DNA of 64,000 nucleotides, taken from contig CAJNDS010000205.1 of the NCBI GenBank assembly GCA_905221605.1, positions 62,001-126,000 of the forward strand, written 5' to 3'. Each line of letters begins with the position of its first letter. Position 1 is the stretch's first letter. This DNA is from Symbiodinium natans. Its lineage: Eukaryota; Sar; Dinophyceae; Suessiales; Symbiodiniaceae. Below the pieces are notes generated by a model that did not search any database, was not told the DNA's origin, and worked only from the letters and a program-made list of their open reading frames with translations. Position numbers and translations under genes: made by a program. Below are positions 15,264 through 45,500 of the stretch, piece after piece.

Positions 15264-15469
15264 TTGGTAGGGCTTCTTGCACAGGGACCGCGGCGACCGT
15301 TCGTAAAAAGGCGTGGGGGAAAAAACTAGAAGAGGGATGGCCCGAAAGCATCGATTTGCCGTGCGTTGACTCCATGCAGTTGACTCTTTGCAGCCGAAGT
15401 GTATGCACTTGGACATGTATGCACTTACATGGTTGCATAGTCACTTGTACACTGCACTTGTCTGATTTG

Positions 15470-15690
15470 CGATGGTTTTGGAACCAGCGAATTCGGGGAC
15501 CATGGTATACTTGCGATGCTTTTTGAACCAGCGAATTCGGGGACCATGGTTTTCGCGATGGTTTTTGGAACCAGCGAATTCGGGGACCATGGTTTTTGCG
15601 ATGGTTTTGGAAACAGCGATTTCGGGGACCATGGTATTTGCGATGCTTGTGGAAACAGCGAATTCGGGGACCATAGTATTTGCGATGGTT
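15470..15690. repeat. Minisatellite A, approximately 55-bp units
   Basis: Four or five tandem units of the type GGAACCAGCGAATTCGGGGA followed by CCATGGTTTTTGCGATGGTTTT. Confidence 0.88.
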
Positions 15691-15694
15691 GATG

Positions 15695-15880
15695 GTTTTG
15701 GAACCACGATATTTGCGAGGTTTTCGAGGCCCCGGAATTCGAGTCCCACGACATTTGCAAGGGTTTCGAGGAATTCGAGTCCCAATATTTGCGAGGTTTT
15801 CGAGGCCCGGAATTCGAGTCCCACGACATTTGCAAGGGTTTCGAGGAATTCGAGTCCCGCGATATTTGCGATGGTTTATT
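15695..15880. repeat. Minisatellite B, GGAATTCGAGTCCC units
   Basis: Alternating units built from ATTTGCGAGGTTTTCGAGGC and GGAATTCGAGTCCCACGACA, repeated two to three times. It shares the ATTTGCGA/TTTTC words with blocks A and C. Confidence 0.85.
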
Positions 15881-15944
15881 TGCGATGGGTTTCGACATGC
15901 AAGCTCCGGGTGTCCACGGCGGGAATGCTATTTGCGAGGTTTTC

Positions 15945-16335
15945 AAGTACGTCCGGAATTCCGCTTCCATGCTATTTGCGGTGTTTTCAAGCGCCCAGAT
16001 GTCCGTTACCATGCTATTTGCAGTGTTTTCAAGCGCCCAGATGTCCGTTACCATGCTATTTGCGGTGTTTTCAAGCGCCCAGATGTCCGTTACCATGCTA
16101 TTTGCAGTGTTTTCAAGCGCCCAGATGTCCGTTATCATGCTATTTGCGGCGTTTTCATGCGCCCAAATGTCAGTTACCATGCTATTTGCGGCGTTTTCAA
16201 GCGCCCAAATGTCAGTTACCATGCTATTTGCGGTGTTTTCAAGCGCCCAGATGTCCGTTACCATGCTATTTGCGGTGTTTTCAGGTGGCCAGATGTCCGT
16301 TACCATGCTATTTGCGGTGTTTTCAGACGCCCAGG
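15945..16335. repeat. Minisatellite C, 42-bp units
   Basis: About nine units of 42 bp (GCCCAGATGTCCGTTACCAT then GCTATTTGCGGTGTTTTCAAGC). The unit length is a multiple of three and lacks stop codons in several frames, so long ORFs run through it on both strands. These are not taken as genes. Confidence 0.92.
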
Positions 16336-16800
16336 GCGTCCGCGGCGTACTATACGTCTGTGCTACAAAAAGTCGACTTTCCAGCCACGGAAGCTCCGCG
16401 TGCGCGGCGTACTACGTGAGTACTACAAAAAGTCGACTTTCCAGCCACGGAAGCTCCGGGCGTCCCCGGCGTACTATACGTCTGTGCTACAAAAGTCGAC
16501 TTTCCAGCTACGGAAGCTCCGCGTGTGCGCGGCGTACTACGTTTGTACTACAAAAGTCGACTTTCCAGCCACGGAAGCTCCGGGCGTCCCCGGCGTACTT
16601 TACGTCTGTACTACAAAAGTCGACTTTCCAGCTACGGAAGCTCCGCGTGGCGTACTACGTTTGTACTACAAAAGTCGACTTTCCAGCCACGGAAGCTCCG
16701 GGCGTCCCCTGCGTACTACGTTTGTACTACAAAACTCGATTTTCCAGCCACGGAAGTCCCCGGCGTACTACGTCTGTACTACACAAGTCGAAAAACAAAC
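16336..16800. repeat. Minisatellite D, GTCGACTTTCCAGCCACGGA units
   Basis: Seven units of about 60-70 bp, each with CTACAAAAGTCGACTTTCC, then AGCCACGGAAGCTCCG, then a CGGCGTACTAC word. Confidence 0.9.
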
Positions 16801-17190
16801 GCAAAAAACGCAAAAACACTAGAGGGGTTACGTTTGCATGTCAAGAAATGCAAAAACACGAGGGTTTCGGCACCGCGCCAACGCCGAAAGCCGCAGAGGG
16901 GTTACGTTTGTATGTCAAAAAACGCAAAAACACCACGGTTTTGGCACCGTGCCAACGCCGAAACCCGCAGAGGGTTGTCTGCGGCCACGAAAAAAAGTAC
17001 CAAAAACGAAACCGCGACCCGGCGATCACCCGCAGAGGGTTGTCCGCGGCCACAAAGAAACGTAAAAAAACGACGGTTTTGGCACCGCGACCACGCCGAA
17101 ACCCGCAGAGGGTTGTCCGCGCAAATCAAGAAACGTAAAAAAACGACGGTTTTAGCACCGCGACCACGCCGAAACCCGCAGAGGGTTGCA
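16800..17190. repeat. Minisatellite E, CCGAAACCCGCAGAGGGTTG units
   Basis: About five units of roughly 70-80 bp. Each joins GGTTTTGGCACCGCGACCAC, GCCGAAACCCGCAGAGGGTT and an AAGAAACGTAAAAAAACGAC segment. Confidence 0.88.
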
Positions 17191-17321
17191 ATCCCGATTG
17201 GCGATGTCAACCCAGCCCGCCGCCTTAGAAAGAGTACTTTTAATTTAGAAATCTAGGACTGGGTACGAAGGTCTAGTAAATTCTACGTAAATCTAGAAAT
17301 TTGTATTCACTGATTACTAAA

Positions 17322-22010: not shown

Positions 22011-24260
22011 CCGACCGCCTGCATGCGCCAGCCCGCCGCCCTGCCCCGCCCCCGGATCGTGGGACCCACAAGCGCAGGCGCAAGAAAAAGGATCCGGCGC
22101 CGTGATGTGCAGTAGGGTGGGAAGATTCCCATCATGCAGGCGCGAAAGTCCGAGCGCGAAAAAACACCGAGAACTGGGAGGTAATTCGAATGCAGTCACA
22201 GTGCTTTGATGTTTAATGTTGTTGCTGCAGAGCTTCCCCCACCCGAGTCTGAAAACTGATTTGGACATGTGGGCACGTGGCAAGGCTCGATGTTGCAAGC
22301 TTTGGCTTTCAGCTGTGTGGGACCATGACGAGTTTCCCTACTCAGTGGGTTTGCAATGGCCGCGGTCTCAGACCCTCCGCGATCTATAGGTTGTTTGCCC
22401 TGCGGTTGAAACCATTCCCGTTCACTCGTTCACTCAGGTGTTCCACTTTGGCGATGGGTTTGCGTCATGGCTCCGGGGCCAAGTTGCGTGTTGTTCATTG
22501 CGTTTTGAGCTAGCCGCTGGAAGTTCAGTGTTGATAGCAACCTTGCAGCCCTCGTGCTGTAGACCAAGGTGCTGCTGCAGCCTTCGTGCCTGCCTCATTG
22601 CCGCAAGACGCGTTGTTTCGACATTGCTTGTTGAAGGCCCAGGGCAGCACAAGACCATGCGCCATGCAAAGAAGCAACTAAACAAACACGGCAATCAACC
22701 TCGACTGAATATGAAGAACACCGGCAGCAAGCAATCACTACCGAGGCGACCGAGAGAAAACAAGTAAACGAGAGCAAGAAGAAAACAAAAGACACACCAG
22801 TGACAAAAACACATGCAACAAACGCAAGGATGCTCAAGCATTTTGTTTGTTCATTTTCCTATTGGTTTTGCTTCTTGCATGTTTGAGCGAATGGGGGCGT
22901 GAATAAGGGAGCAAGTGCGCGTGTGAGGGTGAATGTTGTTCAGTTGGCATCTGTTGTTTGTTTCCTTCCCTGCTGCTGACAAGCCTGGTTTGTACGTTGT
23001 CCATGTGATGTTTCATTGTCGCCGTTTCTTCCTTTGGCCTTGATCCCACACGAGATTTTGCGATGACTGGTTGAGATTTTTTTCCGTGATTTCTGCGGTT
23101 CTCTTGTTGCACATTGATAAGCTCATTGGGGTTGTTTTCCCGAAGCAGTGTGGCAACAAGTGTTTTTTTGTATCACGACAAAAGTCTGGCGCATACTTTG
23201 CAGCATTTAAGATTTTTGGATTGGTTTGCTTCATGTCGCCCTTGTGTGTCTCGGCCCACGCCGGTCGCACGTATATTTCGTGAAGTGCAGAATGGTGTTT
23301 GTCTTTTTGGCCCTGGTGGCTATGTGGAGTGGTCACGAAACGCTCCAGGCATGCTTTTGGAAAGCTACCCAAATGCTCTTAAATTGGTCCTGCGCTGCAG
23401 TTTTGATTGTTTAAGGCCTGGCCGGTCTGCGCCGACATTCTTGTTTATCAAATGTTTGTTACGGAAAGAATCATCCCATGGGGGTTTGTGAAATTTCGAG
23501 GGTTCTTAAAGGAGGGGCGTTCATGGGGGGTAGGTACCTAGGGAACCTTCGGGAAGCTTAGAGAGCCTTAGGGAGCAGTAGGGAGTATTGGGGAACCTTG
23601 GCTTACATACCCCCCTCCGTGAAGAACCTTATAAGAAATGGAGCATCGACTGATGGCGTGGTTTGCTTGGATGTGCTCAGGCCGTTGGAGACGTATGTTT
23701 CGCTAAGCAGCGTCTAAGTGTTGAAAGCTGCCCGGGGCGACTTGGATGTCGACCATCATACTCCTTGTGTTCCAACTTGGGGTCCAAAGCTCATTTTTGA
23801 GCTTTAGCTGTAGCGGGTGGGCTAGGATTTGTGGGCTCGGACCCGGTGGCACATGTTAGGAAAATTCAGATTTTTGCAAATGTTGCGCTACAACCGGAGA
23901 AACCAAGAGAACACGCGAGCCCAACAGCGCCGTGGCCTCTGATGCCCTGCCCGGTTGGACATGTGGCATCGAGATCGAGCACATATGTAGGAATTGCAGC
24001 GGCGCAGGGGGCAGGAGCTTCGTGTGTGGCCCTGTTGCGTCCAACTTTTTTGCAGCTTCGCAGGTTCTGCTGCACATGCCACATAGCACCTTGAGCACGC
24101 AACCCCTGAACTAGTTCAATCCGTACGCCCATTGACCACAGACCTTCTTGCGACCTACCCCCAAATCCCACCACGGATGTACTTACTTGACCCAGATGCG
24201 CCTGATGCCATGAGAAGTTGACATACAAAAACGCCTACAAAGCAAAGGCCACATGAAAGG
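22011..24260. other. Intergenic region upstream of PARN
   Basis: I see no gene here. The open frames overlap on both strands and carry no motif. The region precedes the PARN start codon. I could not identify a promoter element or a trans-splice acceptor. Confidence 0.4.
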
Positions 24261-24272
24261 CCCCGCGGCGCC

Positions 24273-25230
24273 ATGAACGTCACAAAGAGTAACTTCCCGG
24301 ATGTGGCCGCTGAGATCGAGCGGTTGCTTCCGACCGCCGAGTTCGTGGCTATTGATGAGGAGATGACGGGCATCTTCCTACCCGGCCTTCAGGACTTCGT
24401 GGGCGATGCGCCAAGCACCCGCTACTCAAAGATGAGGCAGGTGGCCTCAAACTACAGTGTCATACAGTTCGGCGTTGCGCTTTTTGCGAGACAGGGGGAG
24501 GCCGACGACAGGTACGTGGCGCGAGCGTACAACTTCTACGTCTTTCCGAGCGCCGGCCCGGTGAACATGGAAGCCAGTTCTGTCCACTTCAACTCCAAGA
24601 ACGGCATGGACTGGAATGTCTGGATCCGAGAAGGGATCCCATACATGACTCGAGAGCAAGCGGCCCGGCTCAAGCTCCAGCTCTTCCCCGAGGAGGCTGC
24701 GGCCCCCAGCAAACGCATTCAATTAACGAGCGAGGCAGACATTGAGAACACCAGCAAAGCTGTAGCCAGTTTGAAGGACTGGCTGTCTGATGATGCACGA
24801 GGGGATGAGAAAGAGTTTGAGATCATAACTGCAAATGGCTACTTGCGTCGGTTCATGCACGAGACGCTTCGTGACGACTTTCCCGACTTGGTCGTGGAGT
24901 CCCGGCCCACGAAAATCCGTGGGCTGTCTACCATGGTTGCTCTCCGACTCACCGAAGCTGAAAGGATGGAGCGGAGTGCAAAGCTCCGTGCAGAGAAGGA
25001 GGCGGAGTTCAACATGAAAGTGGGTGTTCGGCGGGTGTTTGCGGCCTTGGCCAACGCCAAGAAACCCATCATTGGCCACGCTTGCTTGTACGACTTGATG
25101 TTTGCCTTCTCCCATTTTGAGGCAAGCCTGCCGGAATCTTTCGCAGACTTCAAGCAAGCTGTCTGTGAGCTTTTCCCCACTGTCTATGATACGCAGCTGC
25201 TGGCCAGGAGCGACCTTTTCAAGCTCAAAA
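24273..25230 (+). CDS. PARN: PARN exon 1 (nuclease core and R3H-like region)
   Basis: A single long exon of more than 310 codons, unusual beside the short exons elsewhere in the window. The chosen ATG gives an N-terminus that aligns with animal PARN residue for residue through the first catalytic motif. The frame runs on to a TAG at 25275-25277, past the likely splice donor. Confidence 0.85.
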
Positions 25231-26634
25231 CAGGCTCAGGCGAGGGTTGGCCAATACCCCCCAAGAGTCGGTTCTAGGCAACTTCAGAGACCAAGGTGGG
25301 GGGGAACCCTGTAAACTCACCAACAGGGGACATTATAGGCCCTGAGGAGAGCCGCAACAGCGCTTCAAGAGCTTTGCACTTGGAGAGGTGCACCGGGTCC
25401 TCCAGGAGGAAGCCGCTGCTACAAAAGCAGAAGGGAACGAGGTGGTGGAGGTCGCCTTGGCCGAGGGGCATGAGAGGTATGCAACGGCCGCTGCCTACCA
25501 CGAAGCGGGCTTTGATGCTTACATAACGGGATGTGCTTCTTCGTTACATTGGCGAACCGTTTTTGTAGAAATCGTTTTGTAGCTGTTCTTGGTCAAGTTG
25601 AACAACCACAGCACTTGTGTGCATTCAGAAGCAGCCCTGAGAGCAAGCGAGGTGCTTTTGCATACATGGCCAGGCACCTCCTGGCCAACCAAGGCGACAT
25701 GCGCTTCAATGGCCGCCTTGTCCTGTTCCGAAACTTTTTCAACGTCAATCTGCACGGGGAGGATGAGCTCATCATCGACGGGGTCTACCTGCACACTCGT
25801 GGGCTGACTGGTCGAAACGCCATGGAGTTCACCACTGTTCTTCAGAGCATTCTTAAGAATGTCAGGACAAAGCGGGGGGGCTCCGAGATGGATACCTCAG
25901 ACGGCAAAGCCCAGGAGGATTCCTTCCAGATTCTTGGCCTTTTTGAAGGTAGCAGCTAAAACTTGGTGAACTTTCTGCCCCACAACCCTAAAAAACCAAG
26001 CCTCACTGTTTCCCAGGCCCTTAGTCGTCGGGTGTGGGTAAGAGAGGATCCGATGGATTGACGACGACTCCGCCTTTGCCATTTTCCCTCCCGGTGCGGA
26101 GGAAGTGGTGGCAGGTGTATGCCAAGAAGCGCAGGCCCCTCCCAAATCTCAAAAAAGGCCTACTAGGTGCAGAGAGGCCCGAAGCCCTCAGCCTGACAGA
26201 AGGGCAGTAAGGTGGCTGACCCTCACACTTCACTACCATTCTTAGCCCATGGGCCTCAGGCTCGCAGTGCTTGTAAGGCAGCTAAGCCTTCGTACTCCTC
26301 AGTTGTTGGAGAAGTGCAGGGCCCTGCAGGGACTTTGGTTTTGAAGCTTAGAAAGAGACTTTCGTAGCATTGCTCTCTTCCGACGTCCCGAATTCCGAGA
26401 CCATATATAGAGACAAAGAAGCATATGGTTCCTAAGCCGTAATTCGCAAACCTGCACAGCCGCAGCCATTGAAACCCAAAACTTCCCTAGGCCCTCTGAA
26501 CATGATTTTTGATGCGGCAGGCGGCAGGTGGTCATGTGGATGGCTTGTCCTTCCTTCCAGGGGCGGATTGGCTACAGTCCCAGACGACCGATCCGGCAGA
26601 ACCCTCGAAGAAGAAGGCCCGGACCAGTGAGTGA
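24273..26634 (+). CDS. PARN: Poly(A)-specific ribonuclease PARN (CAF1/DEDDh family), about 5 exons
   Basis: 3'-5' exonuclease that removes mRNA poly(A) tails and trims small RNAs. Exon 1 (24273 to about 25230) starts MNVTKSNFPDVAAEIERLLP, close to the animal PARN N-terminus, with catalytic Asp28 and Glu30 in FVAIDEEMTG. An R3H-like segment follows (about residues 150-230), then IIGHACLYDLM with the third acidic residue. Exon 2 (about 25345/25361-25529) gives YHEAGFDAYITG with the catalytic His and last Asp. Exon 3 (25652 to about 25940) and exon 4 (about 26043-26130) form the RRM-like part. RIRWIDDDSAFAIF holds the Trp that stacks on the cap in animal PARN. Exon 5 (26561-26634) ends PSKKKARTSE at TGA 26632-26634, with a basic, nuclear-signal-like tail. 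All five active-site residues are present. Some splice sites are GA or GC and not fully fixed. Confidence 0.85.
25652..25940 (+). CDS. PARN: PARN exon 3 (end of nuclease domain and start of RRM)
   Basis: Joins in phase to exon 2, which ends at a GA donor at 25530, giving YITG then AFAYMARHLLANQGDMRF. It continues LVLFRNFFNVNLHGEDELII, matching the human segment from the last nuclease helix to the RRM start, and ends near DSFQILGLFEG. Confidence 0.75.
26561..26634 (+). CDS. PARN: PARN terminal exon
   Basis: Preceded by a pyrimidine-rich CTTCCTTCCAG acceptor. Encodes ADWLQSQTTDPAEPSKKKAR and then TSE and a TGA stop. Assigned from its position, its phase and a basic tail like that of animal PARN. 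Confidence 0.55.
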
Positions 26635-30479: not shown

Positions 30480-30506
30480 TTAGGGTTTAGGGTTTAGGGT
30501 TTAGGG
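30480..30506. repeat. TTTAGGG tract abutting the retroelement
   Basis: Almost four heptamers running directly into the left LTR. Confidence 0.92.
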
Positions 30507-30785
30507 TACGGGGGGACAACCAAGGAAGGAAATCAACTCCCCTAATCGCCCTGAACTTATATTTCCCAGATCGAACCAAGAAACAACCAAGAACACGGAT
30601 AAGAGCAACAAGGAAGGGGCACCCTTACACAGGTAGAGGGGCACTAACCCAACCCTCACTCCCAAACACGGACTTTTTTCTTTGGACGGGCTGGCCATCC
30701 TTGAGCCAAACATAGTTTACGGGTTCATTAACCCTTTCAACTTCCAACACTAACTCCTTTCTACAATACCAATTGCAGCTCCGCA
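30507..30785 (-). repeat. Left LTR (3' LTR of the minus-strand element)
   Basis: 279 bp. The first about 100 bp (30507-30609) match the right LTR with no difference I can see. The last about 85 bp (30700-30785) match closely. The middle (30610-30699) is strongly diverged. On the minus strand it begins TGCGGAGC and ends CCCCCCGTA. Confidence 0.9.
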
Positions 30786-30795
30786 CTCCCCCTGT
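30786..30795 (-). promoter_or_regulatory. Polypurine tract candidate
   Basis: The minus strand reads ACAGGGGGAG immediately before the TGCGGAGC start of the 3' LTR, the expected place for plus-strand priming. It is short. Confidence 0.5.
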
Positions 30796-31156
30796 CCTAG
30801 GATTTCCTAGGACACATTGGAGATGCAGGTCTTTCGGCCAAAAACTGCCATTAAGGCAGCAGCCAGCTGCTTGAAATGCAAGTTGTGGTTTAACGTCTTC
30901 CAGGACGGAATTATAGCACATTGGCTAACCTACTACCCATAGAGAATCTTTTTTCACCATGATCCTCTCATCACTGAAGACTCCTTGGCCTTCTTCACCA
31001 CAAACCGTGGTCTTCGCTACGCGAAAAGCTACTGACTTCTACTATCAGGGATTTCCATACCCTTAAGAGTAACCACCACATTTGTCAGCACATTGGCTGT
31101 TCCAGCGCACCTGTCTCCAGAAAGAGAAAAACCATCCCTTCATCCATACCATCCAA

Positions 31157-32443
31157 TCACTTCTTTTTCCGATTGTTGGCAATCTTGAGGTGAAGTTGCA
31201 GCAGAATATACTCCAGGTCCGAAATCGTAAGAATAGGATCCTGTATGCCCCTTTGAATTGAGGATACCAATCCTTCTCTCTTTGCGTCCTCAATCGCCTG
31301 GCAAGATTGACCCAGCTCTTCATTCGCATTGGCAGACCCTGGTGCCTCCGCATCGGATGGACGATCCTTTTCCTCAGGATCTTGCACCATTACCACCTCT
31401 TCTTTTTTGGGACTCTGACTTTTCTCCTTCTTCTTTGTCTTTCCACCGACATTTGACTTTGTGCGCGTCTTCGAGGATTTTTCCACTGCAGAAGCCACCA
31501 CATTGGATGTTGATCCACCCTTCTCAATGATCGCCGGCATCTTCTTCGGCTTTGGAACCATGAGAGTGTAAGGATCTTCGATAGCTGCAGCTTTCCTCTT
31601 CTTTTTTACCTTTTTTTTCTCCTCCTCAACGGCAACCTCCGTCTCCGAAGTCTCAACCACTTCTTTTTCGGCAGGAATATCTTTGCTGGACTCCCCTTCT
31701 AGGGACCTCTTTTTCCCTTTTTTGGGATCCTTTTCTTCTCCCAAATTGGCTCGCTCATACCATATCCTCAGGTCATTGACCCATTCTTCCACCTCCGCGA
31801 GCGAAACATCATACGACTTCACTACTTCGAGAAGTTCCAGCACTGACAACATTTCAGTGGTCCACGAAACCCATACTTGATCCATTTGGTCAGCATCTCC
31901 AGTGAACTTCAGGAGTTTGAACAATGGTTCCGCCTCTGCTCGAGCCAAATCTGGCTTGCCACCGGAGAGAAATGAAATCGCCTCCATCAACAGTTCCGTC
32001 ATCTTGGTCTCTTCGTCATAAACCATAAAATCCTCCTCATCATCATCGAACTGTTCAGGAGGGATCTCCTTTTCTCCACCATTTGCACCAGACTTTCTCC
32101 TTGGACCATCCCTTAGGGGCGTCCTTGGAGACCTTGGCCTCTGTTTTTCCAACGGAACACCATGCTCGAAGACACACCTGTCACCAAATCGACACTTCCC
32201 AGACCGAGCAAACTGGACGCACCTCACACCAGTTGCATCATGCGAGAACCCACAATCCTTTCCAGCGAAACATTCTCTCCCTGCCACATAGTATTTGCAC
32301 CAATATGAATGTAGCACCACATCATCTTCGGAATGGATGAATTTGCAGTCGTCACCAAATTTGCAGCGATCTTTCCTTTTGCCAAACCAATAGCAGAAAC
32401 CCTTCTTCCTCTTCTCCAAGCGCTCTGCCTCATACCGGTCCAT
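31157..32443 (-). CDS. Retroelement ORF D, triple CCCH zinc-finger protein
   Basis: 428 codons starting MDRYEAERLEKRKKG, 15 bases after the stop of ORF C and in a different frame. Three CCCH fingers lie in tandem: Cys17/Cys27/Cys33/His37, Cys49/Cys58/Cys64/His68 and Cys75/Cys84/Cys90/His94. They match the CPSF30/unkempt style of RNA-binding fingers. Beyond residue 240 come highly basic runs (KKVKKKRKAAA, KTKKKEKSQSPKK) and acidic linkers, then a last helix (LEYILLQLHLKIANNRKKK). A role in RNA binding or packaging is inferred. No enzymatic motif is seen. Confidence 0.68.
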   Translation of the reverse strand: MDRYEAERLEKRKKGFCYWFGKRKDRCKFGDDCKFIHSEDDVVLHSYWCKYYVAGRECFAGKDCGFSHDATGVRCVQFARSGKCRFGDRCVFEHGVPLEKQRPRSPRTPLRDGPRRKSGANGGEKEIPPEQFDDDEEDFMVYDEETKMTELLMEAISFLSGGKPDLARAEAEPLFKLLKFTGDADQMDQVWVSWTTEMLSVLELLEVVKSYDVSLAEVEEWVNDLRIWYERANLGEEKDPKKGKKRSLEGESSKDIPAEKEVVETSETEVAVEEEKKKVKKKRKAAAIEDPYTLMVPKPKKMPAIIEKGGSTSNVVASAVEKSSKTRTKSNVGGKTKKKEKSQSPKKEEVVMVQDPEEKDRPSDAEAPGSANANEELGQSCQAIEDAKREGLVSSIQRGIQDPILTISDLEYILLQLHLKIANNRKKK

Positions 32444-32457
32444 AGGGCGACTGTGCT

Positions 32458-35400
32458 CTACATGAACATTGCCATGTACCTGGGACTGCTCCCTTCACCC
32501 GACGTGCTATCAGTATTTGGTGCTTGGAGTACAGCTGGAAAACCTGGCCTTGGTCCTACCACCTTCATGATCGGTTTTCCGCCAACTCCTGAGCCATGCT
32601 GAGACGATCCAAAAACATTGAACATCTTCATGAAGGCCTTTCTAGTGCCAATCTTCTGCACCCTTTTGATTGGACGTTTCATTGCTCCAACCTTGCATCC
32701 AGATGCGTTCAAACGACACAACCTCCTATAACCAACTCTATGTCCCTTCTTCCAAAGAGCCATAAGAATTTTAGAGGCAGTAACATTCTCCACCTCTACC
32801 TTTTCCAATGGTCCCTCACTTCCCGGAACAAACCCATCCATATCTGAAGACCTTTCCATCTTTTTTGACACCACTTCGTCGAGGTAGTCTTCCGAGATCC
32901 AAGGTAAGTTCCCCTTAGAGGAAGGATTGTCATCATTGTTTGGTCCTTCACCAGGATACCCTTTTGTGCTGTCAAAGATCTTACCAGTAGTGCGGTCCTG
33001 CATAGAGAAATTCGAAGCCACGCGGGAGTACACTGACCACAAGAAAATCCTTGTGTCCGCCAGTCTTGATGACCCACTGGATGTCTCCTCTTCCGGAGAA
33101 ACTTCTGGCGCTTTGCCATCCCCTCCAGTGTCACCACTTATCTCACCTCCAGCATCTTCAATGGGAATAAGGGATTCATTGTTCCCTTGATCAAGCACCG
33201 CACCCTCTGGTCCAAAAACTTCCAGCACCGCTGTCGAAGGATCCACCTCTTCATCAGCATCGTCGTCCATCCTTCTCCAGAGAGCCTCCAATTGGTCCGC
33301 ACAAGTCGCCGCTTGAAGGAACTCCATCAACCGAGCCCTCCCGCGCTGCCAGAGAAATTCCGAAACCATCACCGACCCTTGGGCTCCCAGATTCAGGAAT
33401 GGGTGAACCATTTTGAATACCCTCGCCATAAGTTCAATATGAACTTCCATGCCTGGACTGCGGCTCCAATCGTAGGCAATTGCCTCCATAGCAGTTCCAA
33501 ACTTGTCAGTATTCTTGAATTCCCCTTCCAGACCAGGAGACAACAAGGCACCCATCACCGAAAGAGGGTAATTCCCCACCGCCGGCAAGCACGGGTTGTC
33601 ATGGAACGAATGATGCAGGTCAGTATAATGTCCTTGATCTCTCCTTTGAAAAAGGAGTGCTCCAGTCCCTAGCTGGGCATTCATTTCATCCACTTGAACC
33701 ATTTCAGCACATATCCTCTGTGCCATGTACGCCATTGCTGGCCAGACAGTACGATCGGTCAGACCGCGACGCATAACCCAATCAGTTGTTGGCGACTGAA
33801 TCAGCGTCCTTGGATCATACACCAGAACAACCATCGCACCGTCACCCATTGACTGATCAGCATCGTCCTCCAGTGCCAGGTTCTCATCCTGTTCGCTTGC
33901 ACCCTCGGATGACATGCTAATAACCAAATTTCGATCCATCTTATTGGACCCTTTTTGGCAATCTCTTTGCCCCATTGGCAACTTGCCAACTGCAACCTTC
34001 CAATAAACTCGAGTCAGAAGGCCTTTCACCAGCAATTGCTGAAGGTCACTCCTCACCGGACCACCATCCAACATCTTCGCATCATTACCACGGAGATCAT
34101 TGCTCCCGCCTTCTCCTTCTTTTTGGTCGGTCTCCTCGCCAGAAATCTGTACTGCTCCTTCCGGCGCCGTCTCCTGTCCAGCCACTTCATGCCCAGGAAG
34201 AACTTGAGCGCTTTCAGAGACATTCACCTGTCCAGCAGCACCTTGCCCAGGTAAAACCTCATCCGTGGAGCCCACCGCCAGCGAACCAACCATAACTGAA
34301 CCATCCCTTGTTCTTTTTTGAGACCGTTCAGCTCGACGAGAAGGTTGTGGTAGTGAAAAAACTTGTGAAGTCACTTCTTGGCGGGTCTCCCCCCGCGACG
34401 CTTTGTCGCGCCCTTCGCCAAGGTGAACCGATTTTTTCGGCCCATCATTGGAGCCTGAAGAACCACTTTGTGGAACATTGCCACGACTCGCAGTTCTCCA
34501 CGAATCCCTTTCTTGCAAAAAGAGTTCCTTCAGGCGTTGTACCGCATTGGTCTCCTCCTCGCTTGAATCGCTTGAGGAAGCGGCATACGAGACCAAAGCC
34601 TCCGCCTGGTCATCATCATCCCCCACATCTGCCCACGCTCTGCTGAATGGATACGACAAACCACCACGAGGTTTCACCGGCTCCAGTGGCTTCGGTTTTT
34701 CCACCACTTCCGCCAGTTGCACTCGTCGTTGTGACCGAGATCGTGGCACCTGTCGCACCTGTTTTTTGTCCAGCAAGGGCCTTCCCCTTCTTACAGGGTT
34801 TGATCTTGACCGATACTTTTTCGTTGGTGGATTCACCGGCGGCATTCCAACTCCCACCAACCGCAGCTTCTGTACGCACAACGGAGACCTCTGCGCAAGC
34901 GTCCAACCATCACGGTACCTGACCTTATCAAAAAGCTCCCGATAGGAACCTCTCGGCATAGTTTTTGCACCGGAGTCTTCAGCTTCACGCACCTGAGTGA
35001 GGGTTCGCACCGCCGCTCTTCCAGTCCCTCTGTTCCCAGAAGATTGTTGTACCCGTACAGATGCATCAGAAGGAACTGCCTTTTCCGGTCCTCCCGGTCG
35101 ATATCGGACCTCACCCACCAATTGCAGAATTTTGCATGCGGTCACTTTGTTGATCCCTTTGTCAACCAAATCTTCCACAAAGATGAACTCTTGCAAGTCC
35201 GACACATTGGTCACACCAAGCGTAATCATCACCTCACTCACATGAGGGGTATACACCCACAGGTGTGCATTGCGAGCCATCCAATTTTCAATCGGCTCCT
35301 CCGGATTGTGAAGCTGAGTACTAGTGGATGCAGCCACCGAATTCTTTTGCTCATCAGCTTCTACTTCATCCAGAATATTTTCACCATCTTTTTGTGACAC

Positions 35401-36000
35401 ATTGGTCATTTGCAGCGCTTTTGGTGCCGAGGATGAGGAAGATTCAGCTCCCCCACTCGCAGGTGGCTGAAAAGTGCTTCTATCCGTAAGCTCCCATCCT
35501 CTCTCTTTTTCAAACCGGACCTGATTGGCCACCTGTACCAAGTGTTTCAGGAGCGATAGCCGCTCCTCTGACATCTCGTCATGGGAGTACTTGCAGAAAT
35601 TTAACCCTTTCCGGCAACGTCCTCGGAGGTAATAATCGAAACAGCAATTGTGGAACCCTGCGTCCCTTAGTGACTTCCTGGAAGCATTGTCCCAAGATTT
35701 GCCGGGCTCCCAAGTCCCTTCCAATGCTACATCATCGTTGTGAAGGTACCTGCATGCAGTCCCATATTTACAACCACCTTGATTGTAATACAGACACAGC
35801 CGACCTTTTGGCTCACCTGACGTAGGCTCACCCTTTGATGCACCTTTGCCAAAATTGTACTTGGCCCGGAAGGCTAAATCCTCCCGCTCCTGCTGTGCCT
35901 CATCCACTGTACCTTCCTCTGTGGGAGGGTCACCGATGTTCCCGTCCTCATCATCAGCTTCTTGGCTATTCTTTGGATCAGTTGACCCCCTTCTGGCCAA
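32458..36000 (-). CDS. Retroelement ORF C, 1180-codon protein with two CCCH fingers
   Basis: The longest open frame of the window. CCCH finger 1 uses Cys69, Cys77, Cys83 and His87 (RLCLYYNQGGCKYGTACRYL); finger 2 uses Cys120, Cys129, Cys136 and His140. A basic Arg/Lys stretch lies near residue 400 and a Ser/Glu-rich linker follows. The helical segment around WVMRRGLTDRTVWPAMAYMA to LPAVGNYPLSVMGALLSPGL could be a capsid-like domain. No D-[ST]-G protease, HHCC/DDE integrase or YxDD motif is present. The frame opens with TTG at 36000, and coding enters from ORF B through a frame change at a run of five G (plus-strand C, 35986-35990). It ends at a stop just before ORF D. Confidence 0.65.
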   Translation of the reverse strand: MARRGSTDPKNSQEADDEDGNIGDPPTEEGTVDEAQQEREDLAFRAKYNFGKGASKGEPTSGEPKGRLCLYYNQGGCKYGTACRYLHNDDVALEGTWEPGKSWDNASRKSLRDAGFHNCCFDYYLRGRCRKGLNFCKYSHDEMSEERLSLLKHLVQVANQVRFEKERGWELTDRSTFQPPASGGAESSSSSAPKALQMTNVSQKDGENILDEVEADEQKNSVAASTSTQLHNPEEPIENWMARNAHLWVYTPHVSEVMITLGVTNVSDLQEFIFVEDLVDKGINKVTACKILQLVGEVRYRPGGPEKAVPSDASVRVQQSSGNRGTGRAAVRTLTQVREAEDSGAKTMPRGSYRELFDKVRYRDGWTLAQRSPLCVQKLRLVGVGMPPVNPPTKKYRSRSNPVRRGRPLLDKKQVRQVPRSRSQRRVQLAEVVEKPKPLEPVKPRGGLSYPFSRAWADVGDDDDQAEALVSYAASSSDSSEEETNAVQRLKELFLQERDSWRTASRGNVPQSGSSGSNDGPKKSVHLGEGRDKASRGETRQEVTSQVFSLPQPSRRAERSQKRTRDGSVMVGSLAVGSTDEVLPGQGAAGQVNVSESAQVLPGHEVAGQETAPEGAVQISGEETDQKEGEGGSNDLRGNDAKMLDGGPVRSDLQQLLVKGLLTRVYWKVAVGKLPMGQRDCQKGSNKMDRNLVISMSSEGASEQDENLALEDDADQSMGDGAMVVLVYDPRTLIQSPTTDWVMRRGLTDRTVWPAMAYMAQRICAEMVQVDEMNAQLGTGALLFQRRDQGHYTDLHHSFHDNPCLPAVGNYPLSVMGALLSPGLEGEFKNTDKFGTAMEAIAYDWSRSPGMEVHIELMARVFKMVHPFLNLGAQGSVMVSEFLWQRGRARLMEFLQAATCADQLEALWRRMDDDADEEVDPSTAVLEVFGPEGAVLDQGNNESLIPIEDAGGEISGDTGGDGKAPEVSPEEETSSGSSRLADTRIFLWSVYSRVASNFSMQDRTTGKIFDSTKGYPGEGPNNDDNPSSKGNLPWISEDYLDEVVSKKMERSSDMDGFVPGSEGPLEKVEVENVTASKILMALWKKGHRVGYRRLCRLNASGCKVGAMKRPIKRVQKIGTRKAFMKMFNVFGSSQHGSGVGGKPIMKVVGPRPGFPAVLQAPNTDSTSGEGSSPRYMAMFM

Positions 36001-37544
36001 CCTTCACCGTACCGACGATGCTCATAGGGACACCCATCGCCATTGCGACACCTTCCCTTATTGAAGAACCTGCACAGCTTGCTGTAACCAGGTGACAACA
36101 CCGTCTTTGGTGTCATGTAAGCCTTTTTGTACTGGTCAGGATCCATGTAGGCTTCCATTGGCTTGTTCTCCCTTTTGCTCATGGATTGCACTGCACCATC
36201 AAGCTCCTGCAAAAATAGCTTGGTGTCCAACCAAAGCGCGTTCCAAACCTCATCTTCCCCTTGATTCAGCACCGTTGCCACCGCTTCACCCACAACTGGT
36301 CGAGAAAATCTCCTTTTTCTGCATGCCAGTTCGAAAAGCGCGTTGTGGTACTGTTTTCGGGAAAAAGTGGTTAACTTCCCCAAGCCTGTGCTTTCTGTAC
36401 CATCAGGCTTCCAACCATCATTTTGCAAGATGCCATACGCGCGCCGAGCTTCCGCATTGAGGAATGCCTGATCCGCAACACACTCCTGTAAATCTTCCAT
36501 CGGCCGACCTAACAGCATCCCAGTAATTTTGCCAACATAGGCTTCCTCTTCATTTCCATTCTCCAGAAGAGCTTTGTAGATCTTTTCTCCATGAAGTTGC
36601 CTTTCTTCTCGTTCTTCAGAAGACAACTCCTGTACCACAAGCTCTTCATCGGATTGCTCTTCCTCCTGTTTCCAGTCCCATTGACCGTTGGAATCTTGGT
36701 ACCATTGACCAGCATACCATGAATCCGTCCACCCCGTACTCCAGCCGCTGGGTTTCCATTTCCGCAGCGTCGAAGAAGAGTCCTCCACGTCCTCTTCCAA
36801 AACCAGAAAGGTGTCCAAGATTATGGTACCATCATCTTCCACTCGTTTCACTGTTCCATTGACAGTATCACCAAATTTGAACTGATATGCATTGTTCCCT
36901 TCTGCAGGAACCAATACATTCATATCACCATGGTCCAAAAAGGCTCCATACCCATTGATGCAGCGCACTAGACCCATGATCTCATCTCCCTCTTGATAGC
37001 AATGTGTCCCAGGTGATTCCAAGGCTCCCGCTCGGGGCACTTTCTTTGCATGCTCTTCAGAAACCACCTCTGTATCATCGGCTCCTGGCTCATCCTTTGT
37101 CTTCACCTTTGGGTCACACTGCTCGTCCTGCTCCACGAGTCCCACAAGCTCATCTTTTTTGTGCTCCTGGATTTCAGGACCTCCCTTTTTCTCCGCCAAA
37201 GGCTTTGCCTCATCTGCTGTAATTCGCTCGGTGTCGACTTCCGGCGAACTTCCAGACGGCAACACTTCTCCCTTCATGGGAGTGGACCCATCATTGGAGT
37301 CCTTTGTCACACCTTCTGCAGCAGGCAAATCTTCCTCCACTGCAGGGCAATTGAGTCGATCATCCACGGCAGGCACGCTTTCTTCCACCGCAGGCTCCTG
37401 TTTCTTCCCGATCCAGGTGTTGAGCTCCAGCGATGTTGGCTTGGTTCCCAGGAATCCCTTCCTCATCAGGAGAACCCGAGGTCGGGGCGTCACCACCAGC
37501 CCTAGGACCGCTATCCCTGATAGTAGAGGAAAAATCTTTTTCAC
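35874..37544 (-). CDS. Retroelement ORF B, S1-like and CCCH protein
   Basis: 556 codons. Acidic repeats (PAVEESVPAVDD, PAVEEDLPAAEG) fill the first 80 residues. Near residues 165-235 an S1/OB-like domain reads GDEIMGLVRCINGYGAFLDH and FKFGDTVNGTVKRVEDDGTI, the pattern of an RNA-binding barrel. Near the C-terminus is one CCCH finger (LCRFFNKGRCRNGDGCPYEH). Coding character continues from ORF A at its 5' end and into ORF C at its 3' end, so the three may be one polyprotein broken or shifted twice. Confidence 0.62.
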   Translation of the reverse strand: MKKIFPLLSGIAVLGLVVTPRPRVLLMRKGFLGTKPTSLELNTWIGKKQEPAVEESVPAVDDRLNCPAVEEDLPAAEGVTKDSNDGSTPMKGEVLPSGSSPEVDTERITADEAKPLAEKKGGPEIQEHKKDELVGLVEQDEQCDPKVKTKDEPGADDTEVVSEEHAKKVPRAGALESPGTHCYQEGDEIMGLVRCINGYGAFLDHGDMNVLVPAEGNNAYQFKFGDTVNGTVKRVEDDGTIILDTFLVLEEDVEDSSSTLRKWKPSGWSTGWTDSWYAGQWYQDSNGQWDWKQEEEQSDEELVVQELSSEEREERQLHGEKIYKALLENGNEEEAYVGKITGMLLGRPMEDLQECVADQAFLNAEARRAYGILQNDGWKPDGTESTGLGKLTTFSRKQYHNALFELACRKRRFSRPVVGEAVATVLNQGEDEVWNALWLDTKLFLQELDGAVQSMSKRENKPMEAYMDPDQYKKAYMTPKTVLSPGYSKLCRFFNKGRCRNGDGCPYEHRRYGEGWPEGGQLIQRIAKKLMMRTGTSVTLPQRKVQWMRHSRSGRI

Positions 37545-38469
37545 CTAAACTATTTACACTACCCTGGAATGCCCTCGTAGACTCAGTCTTCGGAGTAGAG
37601 GATGAAGAATCCAGTGCCGCCTCCATTTCCAGCTCATTGCCCGAAGGAGACCCAACCACCTCGTCACTCTTCATCTTTTCACCTACCACCGGCAATGTCC
37701 ACTTGCTTTCCTGCGTATCCAGGCAGTAATAATATTGTCTCCCATCTTCATGGAGGTGCCTTTCCCACGTTGTCCCATCGCACGCTTTGATCAGATGCTC
37801 GTCTTTCCGAAAACCATCCCTTTCAGAGACCTGTCGCATCTCGTCCTCTTCTTCGGACAACTGTCGCAACCTCTCAGCCTCCATCTGTAGGATCTCCTCC
37901 TCCCCCATGGCGTATTCAGCAGCAGGTGCAGCTTCAAAGCCGTCCGCGCCCTTCTGTTTGTGACCACTTCCACCACCTTGGGAACTCGAAGATGGACCCT
38001 TTTTGATCTTGTTCAACGGCCTCCTGGTCGCTTGTAGCACTTCTCCAATCAGATCGGTCTGAGACTCTTGGTCTACCATTCGACCCGAAGTCGAAGACGA
38101 CGGCTGGTACCCGTGTTTGTGTAACACTCGTAAAACAGTCACCTCCATTTCACGATCTATGCCACCAGTCGCATCCCAGTTCCTTTTTTCACCAGGCTTT
38201 GGCGGTACAGAAACAGCACGTCCTTCAGCTTCAGCATTGCTAACCATATCCCTATTGGGATTCATACCCGAATTGGGGCTTTCTGCAACCAAGGCCTCTT
38301 CCAGATGTACTTCAGCGTCGGGAATCACCTCTTCCAACACCGATCTTTCACCCAGAGACTCAGCTGCACCATTTCCAGCTCCACCATCTTGTCCACCATC
38401 CGAGGACAAGTTGGAGCCATCGCTTCGGAGAAGGCATTGCTTCTTGATCCCAAAACCTTGAAAGAACAC
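37360..38469 (-). CDS. Retroelement ORF A, WW-domain protein
   Basis: 369 codons starting about 34 bp inside the 5' LTR. The N-terminal half is acidic and low in structure. A WW domain lies near residues 233-262, from TTWERHLHEDGRQYYYCLD to ESKWTLP, with both tryptophans, the Tyr-Tyr-Tyr core and the final proline. WW domains bind proline-rich peptides, and many act in RNA processing. A glutamate-rich helix (ILQMEAERLRQLSEEEDE) precedes it. The last about 60 codons overlap ORF B in another frame, so the true product probably shifts frame there. I know of no gag protein with this layout. Confidence 0.65.
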   Translation of the reverse strand: MFFQGFGIKKQCLLRSDGSNLSSDGGQDGGAGNGAAESLGERSVLEEVIPDAEVHLEEALVAESPNSGMNPNRDMVSNAEAEGRAVSVPPKPGEKRNWDATGGIDREMEVTVLRVLHKHGYQPSSSTSGRMVDQESQTDLIGEVLQATRRPLNKIKKGPSSSSQGGGSGHKQKGADGFEAAPAAEYAMGEEEILQMEAERLRQLSEEEDEMRQVSERDGFRKDEHLIKACDGTTWERHLHEDGRQYYYCLDTQESKWTLPVVGEKMKSDEVVGSPSGNELEMEAALDSSSSTPKTESTRAFQGSVNSLGEKDFSSTIRDSGPRAGGDAPTSGSPDEEGIPGNQANIAGAQHLDREETGACGGRKRACRG

Positions 38470-38484
38470 TTAACCGCAGGGAAC

Positions 38485-38503
38485 CTAAGTTGGGCTCATA
38501 ACC
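38485..38503 (-). promoter_or_regulatory. Primer-binding site, half-tRNA-Met type
   Basis: Directly inside the 5' LTR the minus strand reads GGTTATGAGCCCAACTTAG. Its complement, CTAAGTTGGGCTCATAACC, has the form of a tRNA-Met anticodon arm, with the CAT anticodon flanked by complementary stem halves (GGGCTCATAACCC type). Drosophila copia primes in this way, from the anticodon region of a cleaved tRNA-Met. The exact tRNA was not found in this window. Confidence 0.6.
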
Positions 38504-38790
38504 TACGGGGGGACAACCAAGGAAGGAAATCAACTCCCCTAATCGCCCTGAACTTATATTTCCCAGATCGAACCAAGAAACAACCAAGAACACGGATAAG
38601 AGCAACCCAGGGGGAAAGGAAAGGGGGAAGGAATCCACACCCTTACCAAACCCTAAGAACCCAGGCACTTCTTTTTGAACTTGTGGCTTTCTGTTCAAGC
38701 CCATCTTGAGCCAAATACGATTACCGGGTTCATTAACCCTTCCAACTTCCAACACTAACTCCTTTCTACAATACCAATTGCAGCTCCGCA
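38504..38790 (-). repeat. Right LTR (5' LTR of the minus-strand element)
   Basis: 287 bp, paired with 30507-30785. The diverged middle is 38607-38704. It should hold the promoter of the element, but no box can be picked out with confidence. Confidence 0.9.
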
Positions 38791-38852
38791 CCCTAAACCC
38801 TAAACCCTAAACCCTGAACCCTGAACCCTGAACCCTGAACCCTAAACCTGAA
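38791..38852. repeat. CCCTAAA/CCCTGAA tract abutting the retroelement
   Basis: About eight heptamers that begin at the first base after the right LTR, in the orientation opposite to the tract at the left end. Confidence 0.92.
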
Positions 38853-40784: not shown

Positions 40785-41082
40785 GCATGAGAAAGGTCGT
40801 CCGTGGAAAGATCTTCACCGCTTTCGGGGAATATTGACGGCATCGCTCGGTTGTGCGGGACCCTTTGCTGTCACGCCCCAAGCCCGAACACCCAACATCA
40901 ATTCGAAACCGCAAGCCCTGAATGTTCAACCACAAGTCCAAGGCCATGCAAAACGAGGCGCAGTCTGAAGTCTCTGGGGTCGAGAGGGCAGTGGAGGCCG
41001 GGTGCTGTTGCAGGATTGAAAGATCGAGGGTTAGGGGTTGCTTGCTGGAATGGGCGTGGGGGGGGGGGGGGGGGGGGATGAC

Positions 41083-41475
41083 GGACAGAAAGGAAAGAAA
41101 GGAACGAAAGGAAAGAAAGGAAAGAAAGGAAAGAAAGGAAAGAAAGGAAAGAAAGGAAAGAAAGGAAAGAAAGGAAAGAAAGGAAAGAAAGGAAAGAAAG
41201 GAAAGAAAGGAAGGAAAGAAAGGAAAGAAAGGAAAGAAAGGAAAGAAAGGAAAGAAAGGAAAGAAAGGAAAGAAAGGAAAGAAAGGAAAGAAAGGAAAGA
41301 AAGGAAAGAAAGGAAAGAAAGGAAAGAAAGGAAAGAAAGGAAAGAAAGAAAGAAAGGAAAGAAAGGAAAGAAAGGAAAGAAAGGAAAGAAAGGAAAGAAA
41401 GGAAAGAAAGGAAAGAAAGGAAAGAAAGGAAAGAAAGGAAAGAAAGGAAAGAAAGGAAAGAAAGGAAGGAACAGA
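41083..41475. repeat. (GGAAAGAAA)n tract
   Basis: About 42 copies of the 9-mer, purine only on the plus strand, preceded by a run of 18 G at 41059-41076. Confidence 0.95.
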
Positions 41476-41855
41476 AAGAAAGGAAAGAAAGCACAGAAAG
41501 AAATGAAAGAACAGAAAGAACAGAAAGAACAGAAAGAACAGAAAGAACAGAAAGAACAGAAAGAACAGAAAGAACAGAAAGAACAGAAAGAACAGAAAGA
41601 ACAGAAAGAACAGAAAGAACAGGAAGAACAGGAAGAACAGGAAGAACAGAAATAACAGAAATAACAGAAAGAACAGAAAGAACAGAAAGAACAGGAAGAA
41701 CAGGAAGAACAGGAAGAACAGGAAGAACAGGAAGAACAGGAAGAACAGAAAGAACAGAAAGAACAGAAAGAACAGAAAGAACAGAAAGAACAGAAAGAAC
41801 AGAAAGAACAGAAAGAACAGAAAGAACAGAAAGAACAGAAAGAACAGAAAGAAGA
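41476..41855. repeat. (CAGAAAGAA)n tract
   Basis: About 40 copies of a related 9-mer, with a CAGGAAGAA subfamily in two places. It follows the previous tract directly. Confidence 0.95.
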
Positions 41856-42084
41856 TAACAAACATAAAGACAGTGACGAAAAGACCGAATAAACACAAAT
41901 AAAATCAAGAAAATCAAGGGGAAAATAAGAAATACAATAAATTCCATACATAAATAAAGAACAAATAGCACAGAAAAGAAAAGAAATAAAACAATAGCAG
42001 AGTTGGACAATGAAGACAAGAAAGAACAGAAAGAAAATAGTGACATACATACACGACATGAAACACAGAAAGAAGGAACAAACG

Positions 42085-42298
42085 GAGCGACAAAGAGACA
42101 GAGAGACAGAGCGACAGAGAGACAGAGAGACAGAGAGACAGAGAGACAGAGAGACAGAGAGACAGAGAGACAGAGAGACAGAGAGACAGAGGGACAGAGG
42201 GACAGAGGGACAGGGAGAAAGAGGAGAGAGAGAGAGAGATACGGAGAGACAGAGCGACAGAGAGACAGAGAGAAGAAGAGATAGAGAGACGGAGAGGC
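42085..42298. repeat. (GAGACAGA)n tract
   Basis: About 20 octamers with GGGACAGA variants, plus a second short block after a GA run. It continues the same purine bias. Confidence 0.92.
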
Positions 42299-42599
42299 GA
42301 ACCCTAAACCCGCCGAAAAAGGTTGGACGGTTTTGTGGTTTGGGGATGGTTTTGAATGGCGTTTCGGTTTCGGGAGGTCGCTTTTGGAATTTACGAACCT
42401 GCGCGGTTAAGGGGCGGGTGTTTAGGGTGTTCGGGAGGTGGAGCAGTGTGCGTTCATTGGGGCTCAAGGTTGCTCTTTCCCATCTGACTTGCAGGCTCGT
42501 GGTAGTGTTTGAGTCGAGTCATAGGTACCTTGAGCAAACAAGTATAGCTTCCCATCCACACGCCTTTCACAGTTGAAAATTGCAATTTTTGTTTCACTT

Positions 42600-45500
42600 T
42601 TCTTGAGGACTGCAAGACGGCGGCGAGCAGTCTTACAAAATCCTCTAGCCTCGTACTCCGTTCTGGCAGCCTGAAGCAAGCCCTGAACTGTCAACCGCGT
42701 CTTCGTCAGGAGATCTACATCCGGGAAGAGCAGGAGCGGGAGGAGCGAGAAAAGCAGAGGGAGGAGGACAGAGAACGCAGCAGTGGAGGGGTGTAGGGTT
42801 CGCCCCATAGGATAGGCTTCAAACCCACACCCTACCTCAAACACCGAAGCCTTGAGCCAGGCAGCCAGTGCTTTTGCAACCGGGAGTTTCCGGGGTGTAT
42901 TGTGCCATTGAGAAACTGGTATAGGCGCTTCCCCAGCTCGATGCGCCGGTCCCTCGACCACACGCTGCTGCGGTCGCCTTCGCGAAGCCAATGGGCCATC
43001 ATGGCCCCGTCAGGGTTTTCTGTGCGCATCGTGTTGGTCGGTCACGCTTTTGGGTAAGGAGGTCAGACAGGTCGGCATGAGTCAGCCTCCGCTTCTGGCA
43101 TGCGCATGCGCAGATCCTGATCTTGAGCTCCATCCAGGGTTGCCCTGGGAAGTCAGCACCGCCCCCTCCATGACCGGAAGTCAGCACCGCCCTCTCCGAA
43201 TCCTCCCTGAACAGCTACTTGCAGCTGCTTGCTTGCTCCAGCCGTCTGCAGCACATGGTGCAAAGCACCATTTCTGGCGTGCCGCGACCGGCCGGCAGTC
43301 TCTCATCCACCCCCTCCTATATCCCCCTTGGGTCTTCTTTTTTTGTTTTTATAAAGCCCAAGAGGATATTGTTATTTTTTTTTTAAAGGGTTCTAAGGGG
43401 AGTATAGCCTCTTCTGCTGTCGGTCTCATTCTTCTTCTTCTCTGGTAGAGGGCGGAAGTTGCACCCTCAGGTCGCTGTTAAGTTGTAGGAATCAGCCTTG
43501 AAGAGGTTCAGGAACAAGAAGGTTCAGTGATTCAGGCTGAAGAAGTTCGGATGCAAGAAGGTTTAAGAGCCAGGTGGGGGGAGGGGTGCCATGGGTCCTG
43601 GCTAAGTTGAATGAACCACCCCTCCTTCTCCCCTGCTTATACGCAACCTAAATGCTTATAAGCAGCTTCTAAGCAATGCATGGTCGAACAAAGTCACTGT
43701 GCAACCAAGATTAAGTTCGAACTCATAAATGCAGCGAGCATCAGACATAAGAATGTTGAGATTGAAGTGCTAATACTATGACTCCCAAGCCACGCGGATT
43801 TAACAAAAAGACAGGTTCAAGACTTCAAATCCTCACGCTCTGGATATGTAAATCTTAAACCTTCAGCCTCTCATAAAGCGCTTGGGACTTAAGAATCTAG
43901 ATTCAAGGCTTAGAGGTATCTTAAACACCCGCAAACTCCCTCCTTCCCTCAACAACAGATGAGAAGCCTAGAGGAGGCCCGGCGCGAGAGGGAGGCCAAG
44001 AAGAAAGCCGAGGCCAAGAAGAAAGCTGAGGAGGCCAGGAAGAAAGTCGAGGAGGCCAGGAAGAAAGTCGAGGAGGCCAAGAAGACGGCCGAGGAGGCCA
44101 AGAAGAAAGTCGAGGCCAAGAAATGGTGCATGGGTTTAGGGTTTAGGGCCCGGATGAAGCATGAAAAATGGCTTGGGCTTTTTAGGGTTTAGGGGGGATA
44201 CTCTGTAGGAGGCCCGCAAATTCGAGGTTAAAGGGCATCGATTGAACTTCGCCCCAGGAAGGCGGTAAAGGCACCTACAATCTTTCTAGCTTGTGTGGCT
44301 ACAGCCTTCGGCCCTCTCGGCTCCGTCCCAGACTCCCTGCCCCTCTGCCAGAACTTGTGGCTACTTCGTGCGTATGATTTTGCTTCGACTTGCTTCGTGA
44401 GCTCAAGAGTTTTACGACAGATCTTGCCAGCAAAATGACTTGAGCTCCTACAAGCAAGCAAGCCCGTGGAGCGGTTCGCCAAGTGGGTGCAGTCGGTGGC
44501 AACAAAACGAAGAGCATTGGCCTGTCAGTTTGTCATTCTTTGTTCAGAGTCTTCGGGTTCGGGGTCCCCTCAACCCACCCCGCTTACTTTGAGGTTGTGG
44601 GGCCGTTGACCATGCTACGCCACAAGTTCCACTGGAACCCCTGCCGTGCGCTTGAGTCTGCTGCGGAGGCCAAGCATGACACTGAGCCGCAAGCCAAAGC
44701 CAACAACACCGAGGCGAGTCGATTCAATGTTCATTCATTCAGTTCTATTCAGACACATTGCGGGTGTGTGTGGACCTCGCGCAGTTTTTCTCGTGTAGAC
44801 TGGGGTGGGTCCCTGCACTTCGGCCTCAGGTGCAAGGAATTGGGGCGGGGCTGACACTTGAGGGCTCATGGGTAGTAGGAAGCATAAGGCAATCAAGGAT
44901 GCACTACGCGTCTCCCTGTGATTATCACTTCCATGACCTCCAAAAGGGTCCGCTAGTCCTCCTATACCCGCCTCGTCGCAGTCCGTTTCCTCCTTGCTTC
45001 ATTTACAGTAGGGTCACCAGACCACCTTCCAAATTGCCAAGCGTCCTTTTCTTGAGTTGGCATAGCAGCCCCAAAACCCCCAAAGCCCTGAGTCCTCGAC
45101 CCTGAGATCCTAGAGCCGAGTCGAACCCCTGTCTGCACTTCCCCAGCAACACCGACTAGATGCTCCAAGCACCTAGCACTTGAATGCCATGCCAGGCCCA
45201 GAAGCTGGTGAAGGCCAAGGACGTGAGCAAGGTGCTGGCGCCGTGCGCAATGTTCGAGTTAGGATGCATGGCAAAGCCATGGTTTGGGGCCTGTTTCCAC
45301 GGGTTGTCAAGTGTACGAGTGGGCTTTTGCCCGACTCCCACGTGGCAGGCCCATGGGCAGCACCCGGACGCTTCGCACCATGCGCCGCACGCGGCCAAGG
45401 CAGACGAGGCTGTGGCCCTTGAACCTCTGTTTTTTTTGGTTTAGGGGTTTAGGGGTTTAGGGGTTTAGGGTTTAGGGTTTTTGGGGGGGCGGGGGCGGGG

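Follow-up and report, generated by a model that had tools for sequence, protein, structure and literature searches.

A multicopy, apparently non-autonomous LTR retroelement family of Symbiodinium natans with telomeric-repeat insertion and a large RNA-binding protein

A 64,000-nt stretch of the Symbiodinium natans genome (hereafter the window) carries a member of a multicopy dinoflagellate LTR retroelement family that is likely to be recently active and apparently non-autonomous, inserting in telomeric repeats and encoding an RNA-binding protein under selection, by a mechanism that we infer below. A giant RNA-binding protein in place of copying enzymes, together with residence in telomeric repeats in the copies examined, makes for an unusual way of life. 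The sequence-only reading, which took the element for an LTR retroelement loaded with RNA-binding domains instead of pol, is supported, since neither a hidden reverse transcriptase (RT) or integrase, in the ORFs and relatives searched, nor a lone copy with LTR-like ends made by simple duplication was found. A literature search, mostly of titles and the beginnings of abstracts, returned no published description of the element, and the available portions of PMC3229502, PMC12014239 and PMC9498494 contain none.

The element is laid out in Table 1, with its coding strand corrected to minus. The paired LTRs, candidate primer-binding site (PBS) and purine tract proposed earlier were all confirmed: the LTRs are direct repeats (100% identity over 103 nt and 92% over 87 nt, with divergence between these blocks), a 12-nt tRNA-Met-type PBS abuts the 5' LTR, and the tract abuts the 3' LTR. 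In the window as in other copies, the LTRs are direct and the PBS and purine tract adjoin them, a hallmark of LTR retrotransposons. The plus-strand letters of the PBS are GGGCTCATAACC, which we take to be part of the tRNA-Met anticodon arm; GGTTATGAGCCC, directly inside the 5' LTR, is complementary to it. The 12-mer occurs once in the window, against 0.0065 expected per window.

Table 1. Features of the element and its flanks in the window, in the coding direction of the element.
Feature	Position	Strand	Basis
LTR retroelement	30507-38790	minus	paired LTRs, PBS, purine tract
Telomeric CCCTAAA x3 flank, sense opposite to flank 30486..30506	38791..38811	.	exact repeat
5' LTR, 287 bp, subfamily 1, TG..TA	38504..38790	minus	direct-repeat comparison
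TTTGGCTCAAG, matching 3' end of dinoflagellate spliced leader; then ATG at 38704-38702	38705..38715	minus	11-mer match
Candidate PBS, complementary to GGGCTCATAACC of presumed tRNA-Met anticodon arm	38492..38503	minus	common PBS start in other copies
Polyprotein fragment 1	37360..38469	minus	ORF and relatives
WW domain	37690..37767	minus	Pfam E 0.0053, below cut-off; profile match to Prp40
Polyprotein fragment 2	35874..37544	minus	ORF and relatives
S1-like barrel	36816..36995	minus	Pfam E 0.16, below cut-off; predicted fold in relative
MLLE (PABC) domain, signature KITGMLL	36429..36617	minus	Pfam E 4.1e-7, above cut-off; predicted fold in relative
CCCH finger 1	36018..36080	minus	Pfam below cut-off; motif
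Polyprotein fragment 3	32458..36000	minus	ORF and relatives
CCCH finger 2	35737..35808	minus	Pfam; motif
CCCH finger 3	35581..35646	minus	placed by offset from P0043
Polyprotein fragment 4 (C-terminus)	31157..32443	minus	ORF and relatives
CCCH fingers 4 to 6	32162..32395	minus	placed by offset from P0043
Polypurine tract AGGACAGGGGGAG, abutting 3' LTR	30786..30798	minus	identical tract in other copies
3' LTR, 279 bp, subfamily 2, TG..TA	30507..30785	minus	direct-repeat comparison
Spliced-leader-like 11-mer TTTGGCTCAAG in 3' LTR; ATG one base later	30700..30710	minus	11-mer match
Telomeric TTTAGGG x3 flank	30486..30506	.	exact repeat

Elsewhere in the window, a CAF1/PARN-like ribonuclease ORF lies at 24222-25277 (Pfam CAF1, E 5.9e-69), long purine microsatellites of the GGAAAGAAA and GACAGAGA types at 41080-42300, and long overlapping ORFs on both strands at 15460-17260, over 42-nt and other tandem repeats; three of these ORFs were tested and had no Pfam match. 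ARAGORN calls a single tRNA in the window, a tRNA-Pro (45104-45200), and no tRNA-Met, and no part of the window matched an Rfam family at the gathering thresholds. Exact telomeric arrays of at least two units number 26, in both orientations, and make up 1.07% of the window.

The window copy itself is a rearranged, decayed chimera of two subfamilies. Aligned with each other, its LTRs show 20 mismatches in 263 positions plus 40 gap columns, and its flanks, TAGGG versus CCCTA, are opposite in sense, so that it has no matching target-site duplication (TSD). In the host assembly (759 Mb, 2,543 contigs), the 5' LTR as query brought up 1,360 candidates, of which the best 40 scored were 99-100% identical and formed 9 pairs, and the 3' LTR query gave 1,356, of which the best 40 scored were likewise 99-100% identical and formed 14 pairs; the two candidate sets may largely be the same places. 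Since each query yields its own pairs, the window LTRs derive from two separate subfamilies, and because the window copy joins them, its inverted flanks can be accounted for by two copies having recombined.

The four ORFs that had been read as separate are pieces of one frame, according to relatives and full-length copies. Several relatives read across each of the three junctions between the ORFs without a change of frame. In the window copy the frame is therefore broken at these points; by comparison with relatives, this copy also lacks about 183 residues near 37,400. The single frame of about 2,700 codons, combining WW, S1, MLLE and six CCCH fingers, is uninterrupted in two of 17 fetched copies (L034, 2,734 codons; L043, 2,733 codons); among the other 15, one holds 401 Ns, and assembly errors are possible. 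In L034 and L043 no stop interrupts it across the 5' LTR and the PBS, with its ATG directly after TTTGGCTCAAG. In the two window LTRs, which represent one subfamily each, only one of the three frames is open, the one that starts with the ATG at the spliced-leader-like site, and in both it enters the shared LTR end in one phase despite an 8-nt length difference. The 11-mer alone is weak evidence, because 0.61 matches are expected per 64-kb window and a further one occurs at 9778; it gains weight only from its position before an ATG and the open frame in both LTR types. A 21-mer of the dinoflagellate spliced leader (DinoSL; sequence from PMC6050394) has 205 exact copies in the host genome, and its reversed control has none, as befits a dinoflagellate or a close relative.

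All three domain types named in the sequence-only reading (WW, S1-like barrel, six CCCH fingers) were recovered, but an MLLE domain had been overlooked. The curated Pfam cut-offs are exceeded only by the MLLE and, in ORFs 31157-32443 and 32458-36000, by the fingers; the CCCH match in ORF 35874-37544 falls below them (best E 1.5e-4). A predicted model of a relative supports the S1 and MLLE folds, and the MLLE assignment combines this modelled fold with the KITGM signature. Searches for protein relatives, in each of which the best approximately 7,990 candidates were scored, found 45, all from the source "ena"; the largest cluster is P0043 with 288 members, and the member column sums to 765, which counts protein pieces and not copies. 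The longest relative has 2,609 aa, the 1.75-fold length rule having admitted up to about 4,566 aa, and an IMG/VR scan found no relative. Six CCCH motifs are present in P0041-P0043. Between P0042 and P0043, similarity per 40-residue window is 26-52% over the first approximately 120 aligned residues and 65-100% in most later windows, and P0008-type relatives match at about 43% over the first approximately 285 residues matched; at the sequence level, this N-terminal divergence points to recombination between subfamilies.

The earlier reading left open whether the element is specialised for binding RNA or is a vehicle for captured host genes. With P0043 as reference, 506 of 510 cells at the CCCH zinc ligands are conserved, compared with 1,573 of 2,014 at other finger residues and 39,738 of 48,527 overall (the sequences counted are related to one another, and stretches of poor match were masked). 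The dN/dS ratios are 0.193 and 0.198 between two subfamily-1 copies and L074, the sole subfamily-2 stretch compared (798 codons), and 0.40 between the two subfamily-1 copies themselves (2,729 codons). Judged by these ratios, the stretch compared is under purifying selection. The conserved ligands and a dN/dS of about 0.19 favour a protein that the element requires over a passive vehicle.

The earlier observation that no protease, integrase, RT or RNase H motif is visible was borne out. Pfam profiles of the RVT, rve, RNase H, protease and gag families gave no match in the four window ORFs (E<=1) or in three long relatives (E<=5, at which HMMER filters drop most weak matches), and the precomputed Pfam lists of the 45 relatives, from searches that scored part of the candidates, name no pol domain. 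No CCHC or HHCC pattern occurs in P0043 and P0042; FGDD, YDDD and DSGA patterns do, within finger or acidic/low-complexity stretches. Pfam at E up to 5 and PDB profile searches yielded no hidden pol or Gag. The predicted model of the second half of the protein failed (mean pLDDT 29.5).

The host genome has 2,237 candidates for Copia RT (RVT_2), and the 150 places scored all lay farther than 12 kb from the 80 LTRs scored; this result is weak because only the best 150 of the 2,237 RT candidates and the best 40 of about 1,360 LTR candidates per query were scored. No RT element turned up that shares the LTR ends, the PBS or the telomeric target. Six hand-picked Copia 3' regions, of elements whose LTR ends are unmapped, held no telomeric array of at least two units, and single heptamers in three of the six; the telomeric target is thus apparently not one that the Copia elements sampled have in common with the family. 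The family could instead be autonomous as a whole, if a 9.69-kb class encoded both RT and integrase, with the 8.55-kb elements as satellites of it. LTR pair spacings are mostly 8.3-8.6 kb, with a few shorter, and seven of 45 pairs fall at 9.67-9.70 kb with an identical LTR start (on C58, C102, C160, C236, C246, C273 and C302, the one on C102 spanning 125672-135358); this class, and one pair spaced 12.8 kb, could hold pol. We consider an autonomous class unlikely, though a serious contender: a pol domain is listed for none of the 45 relatives among the candidates scored, and the longer class may instead be relatives with a different N-terminus (P0041, P0042). The enzymes are probably supplied in trans.

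LTR pairs and TSDs across copies show that the family is multicopy and does not stem from a single simple duplication. An exact pattern search, a less biased sample than copies chosen by LTR similarity, found 637 LTR starts in the host genome and none in its control; the pattern left out pentamers beginning with A. Among the first 100 in contig order, 95 had letters, comprising 49 3' LTRs (recognised by the purine tract) and 46 5' LTRs, and the pentamer preceding the 5' LTR is telomeric in all 46, including the window and copies already compared (40 exact CCCTA or TAGGG, six one-base variants). As background, in-phase telomeric sites make up 101 of the 64,000 positions of the window, and 667 of 63,995 carry one of six such pentamers. 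The heptamer TTTAGGG is the dinoflagellate telomere repeat (available part of PMC11453091). It occurs exactly in 29 of 30 LTR-adjacent 100-bp flanks, against 14 of 30 100-bp stretches 1.4-1.5 kb away; the latter count shows that telomeric heptamers are common near the LTRs, which counts against the present reading.

The short TSD lacking in the window copy is present in other copies: 30 of 31 other complete readable ones carry a 5-bp TSD at one phase of the heptamer. Using the 5' LTR, 23 copies were compared (L041, with no 5' LTR match, was left out), and 21 of 22 excluding the window have identical TSDs, the two in L042 differing by one base. Ten subfamily-2 pairs were fetched with the 3' LTR and one, whose end was not found, was dropped; the nine readable pairs all have TSDs and no LTR mismatches. 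Pairs from the 5' LTR search (window excluded) show 0 to 8 aligned differences and up to 23 gap columns, and the LTR pairs of other copies are identical at 97-100% of aligned positions; selection by LTR similarity to the query biases these copies towards youth, their flanks being unselected. Among these copies, L044 and L045 share a 3' flank; the copies at C1777:59128 and C1777:82023 have the same 3' flank, perhaps through a segmental duplication.

Could the telomeric flanks result from cDNA joining to chromosome ends, or from telomerase healing, and not from integration? The inverted flanks of the window copy, without a TSD, would fit such an origin, and were considered in that sense and dropped, since complete copies show TSDs in both orientations of TTTAGGG arrays. 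The variant pentamers CCCGA, CCCTG and CAGGG flank single copies on both sides, as integration predicts; with TSDs in 30 of 31 other copies and recombination at hand for the window flanks, end joining or healing is very improbable. More improbable still is that these are host genes for RNA-binding proteins, multiplied as processed retrocopies or in tandem, whose shared UTRs were mistaken for LTRs: the domains are host-like, a DinoSL-like motif stands at the start and retrogenes are common in dinoflagellates (available part of PMC6050394), but LTRs identical at 97-100%, a PBS and purine tract at exact LTR borders and the 5-bp TSDs speak against it.

Copying and insertion by the standard LTR route into telomeric heptamers fit these results. 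How the RNA-binding protein serves the element and how the site is chosen, we infer. The element RNA would be trans-spliced to the spliced leader at the site in the LTR, with translation starting at the adjacent ATG; the protein may take over the role of Gag/NC in binding this RNA, and its MLLE may recruit host PAM2 proteins. Copia elements would be the most likely suppliers of RT and integrase in trans, and telomeric repeats may act as a harmless landing site. A fuller scheme, that of a new type of genomic parasite, an LTR element that has shed pol, in which borrowed Copia enzymes are guided to telomeric repeats by the RNA-binding protein of the element itself, for example via telomeric transcripts, and in which the frame begins in the LTR at a spliced-leader acceptor, so that host trans-splicing defines the R region, is offered as a speculation and quite doubtful as a whole.

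A conserved mRNA-handling protein replacing pol in a high-copy element would show what non-autonomous elements must keep. The family also provides a marker for many interstitial telomeric arrays of the host genome, datable by LTRs, and a test of target choice without an encoded integrase. No other LTR element is known for insertion at a single phase within telomeric repeats.

Ty1/copia elements typically make 5-bp TSDs, as the element here does. The Hemivirus type of this group (Pseudoviridae) also uses a PBS for a short tRNA segment (PMC8515867), here 12 nt complementary to the presumed tRNA-Met anticodon arm. The element differs from them in that no RT, integrase, protease or Gag was detected in the window ORFs and three long relatives. 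TRAS and SART of the silkworm share the insertion inside telomeric repeats, but are non-LTR elements (PMC7265360 and PMC2868851), whereas the element here has LTRs and integration-type TSDs. Such non-LTR elements carry their own endonuclease and RT; no RT was found in the window ORFs and three long relatives. Plant TR-GAG and LARD elements, as far as the accessible text of PMC6022998 describes them, are alike in having LTRs, no pol and presumed mobilisation in trans. TR-GAG is defined by Gag, or Gag and protease, whereas Pfam detects no Gag here; LARD has no domain, whereas a conserved RNA-binding frame of about 2,700 codons is present here; and the telomeric target sites belong to the present element. 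Host-like cargo domains also occur in Symbiodinium retrotransposons with captured DNA methyltransferases, which are LINE and DIRS elements keeping RT, unlike the element here, where none was found (available part of PMC5890265). In the accessible text of PMC4700185, telomere-repeat specialists are non-LTR elements, and yeast Ty5, alike as an LTR element with telomeric preference, targets silent chromatin. Ty5 has fused GAG and POL and reaches this chromatin via integrase and Sir4 (PMC4700185), whereas the element here inserts at one phase of the repeat itself.
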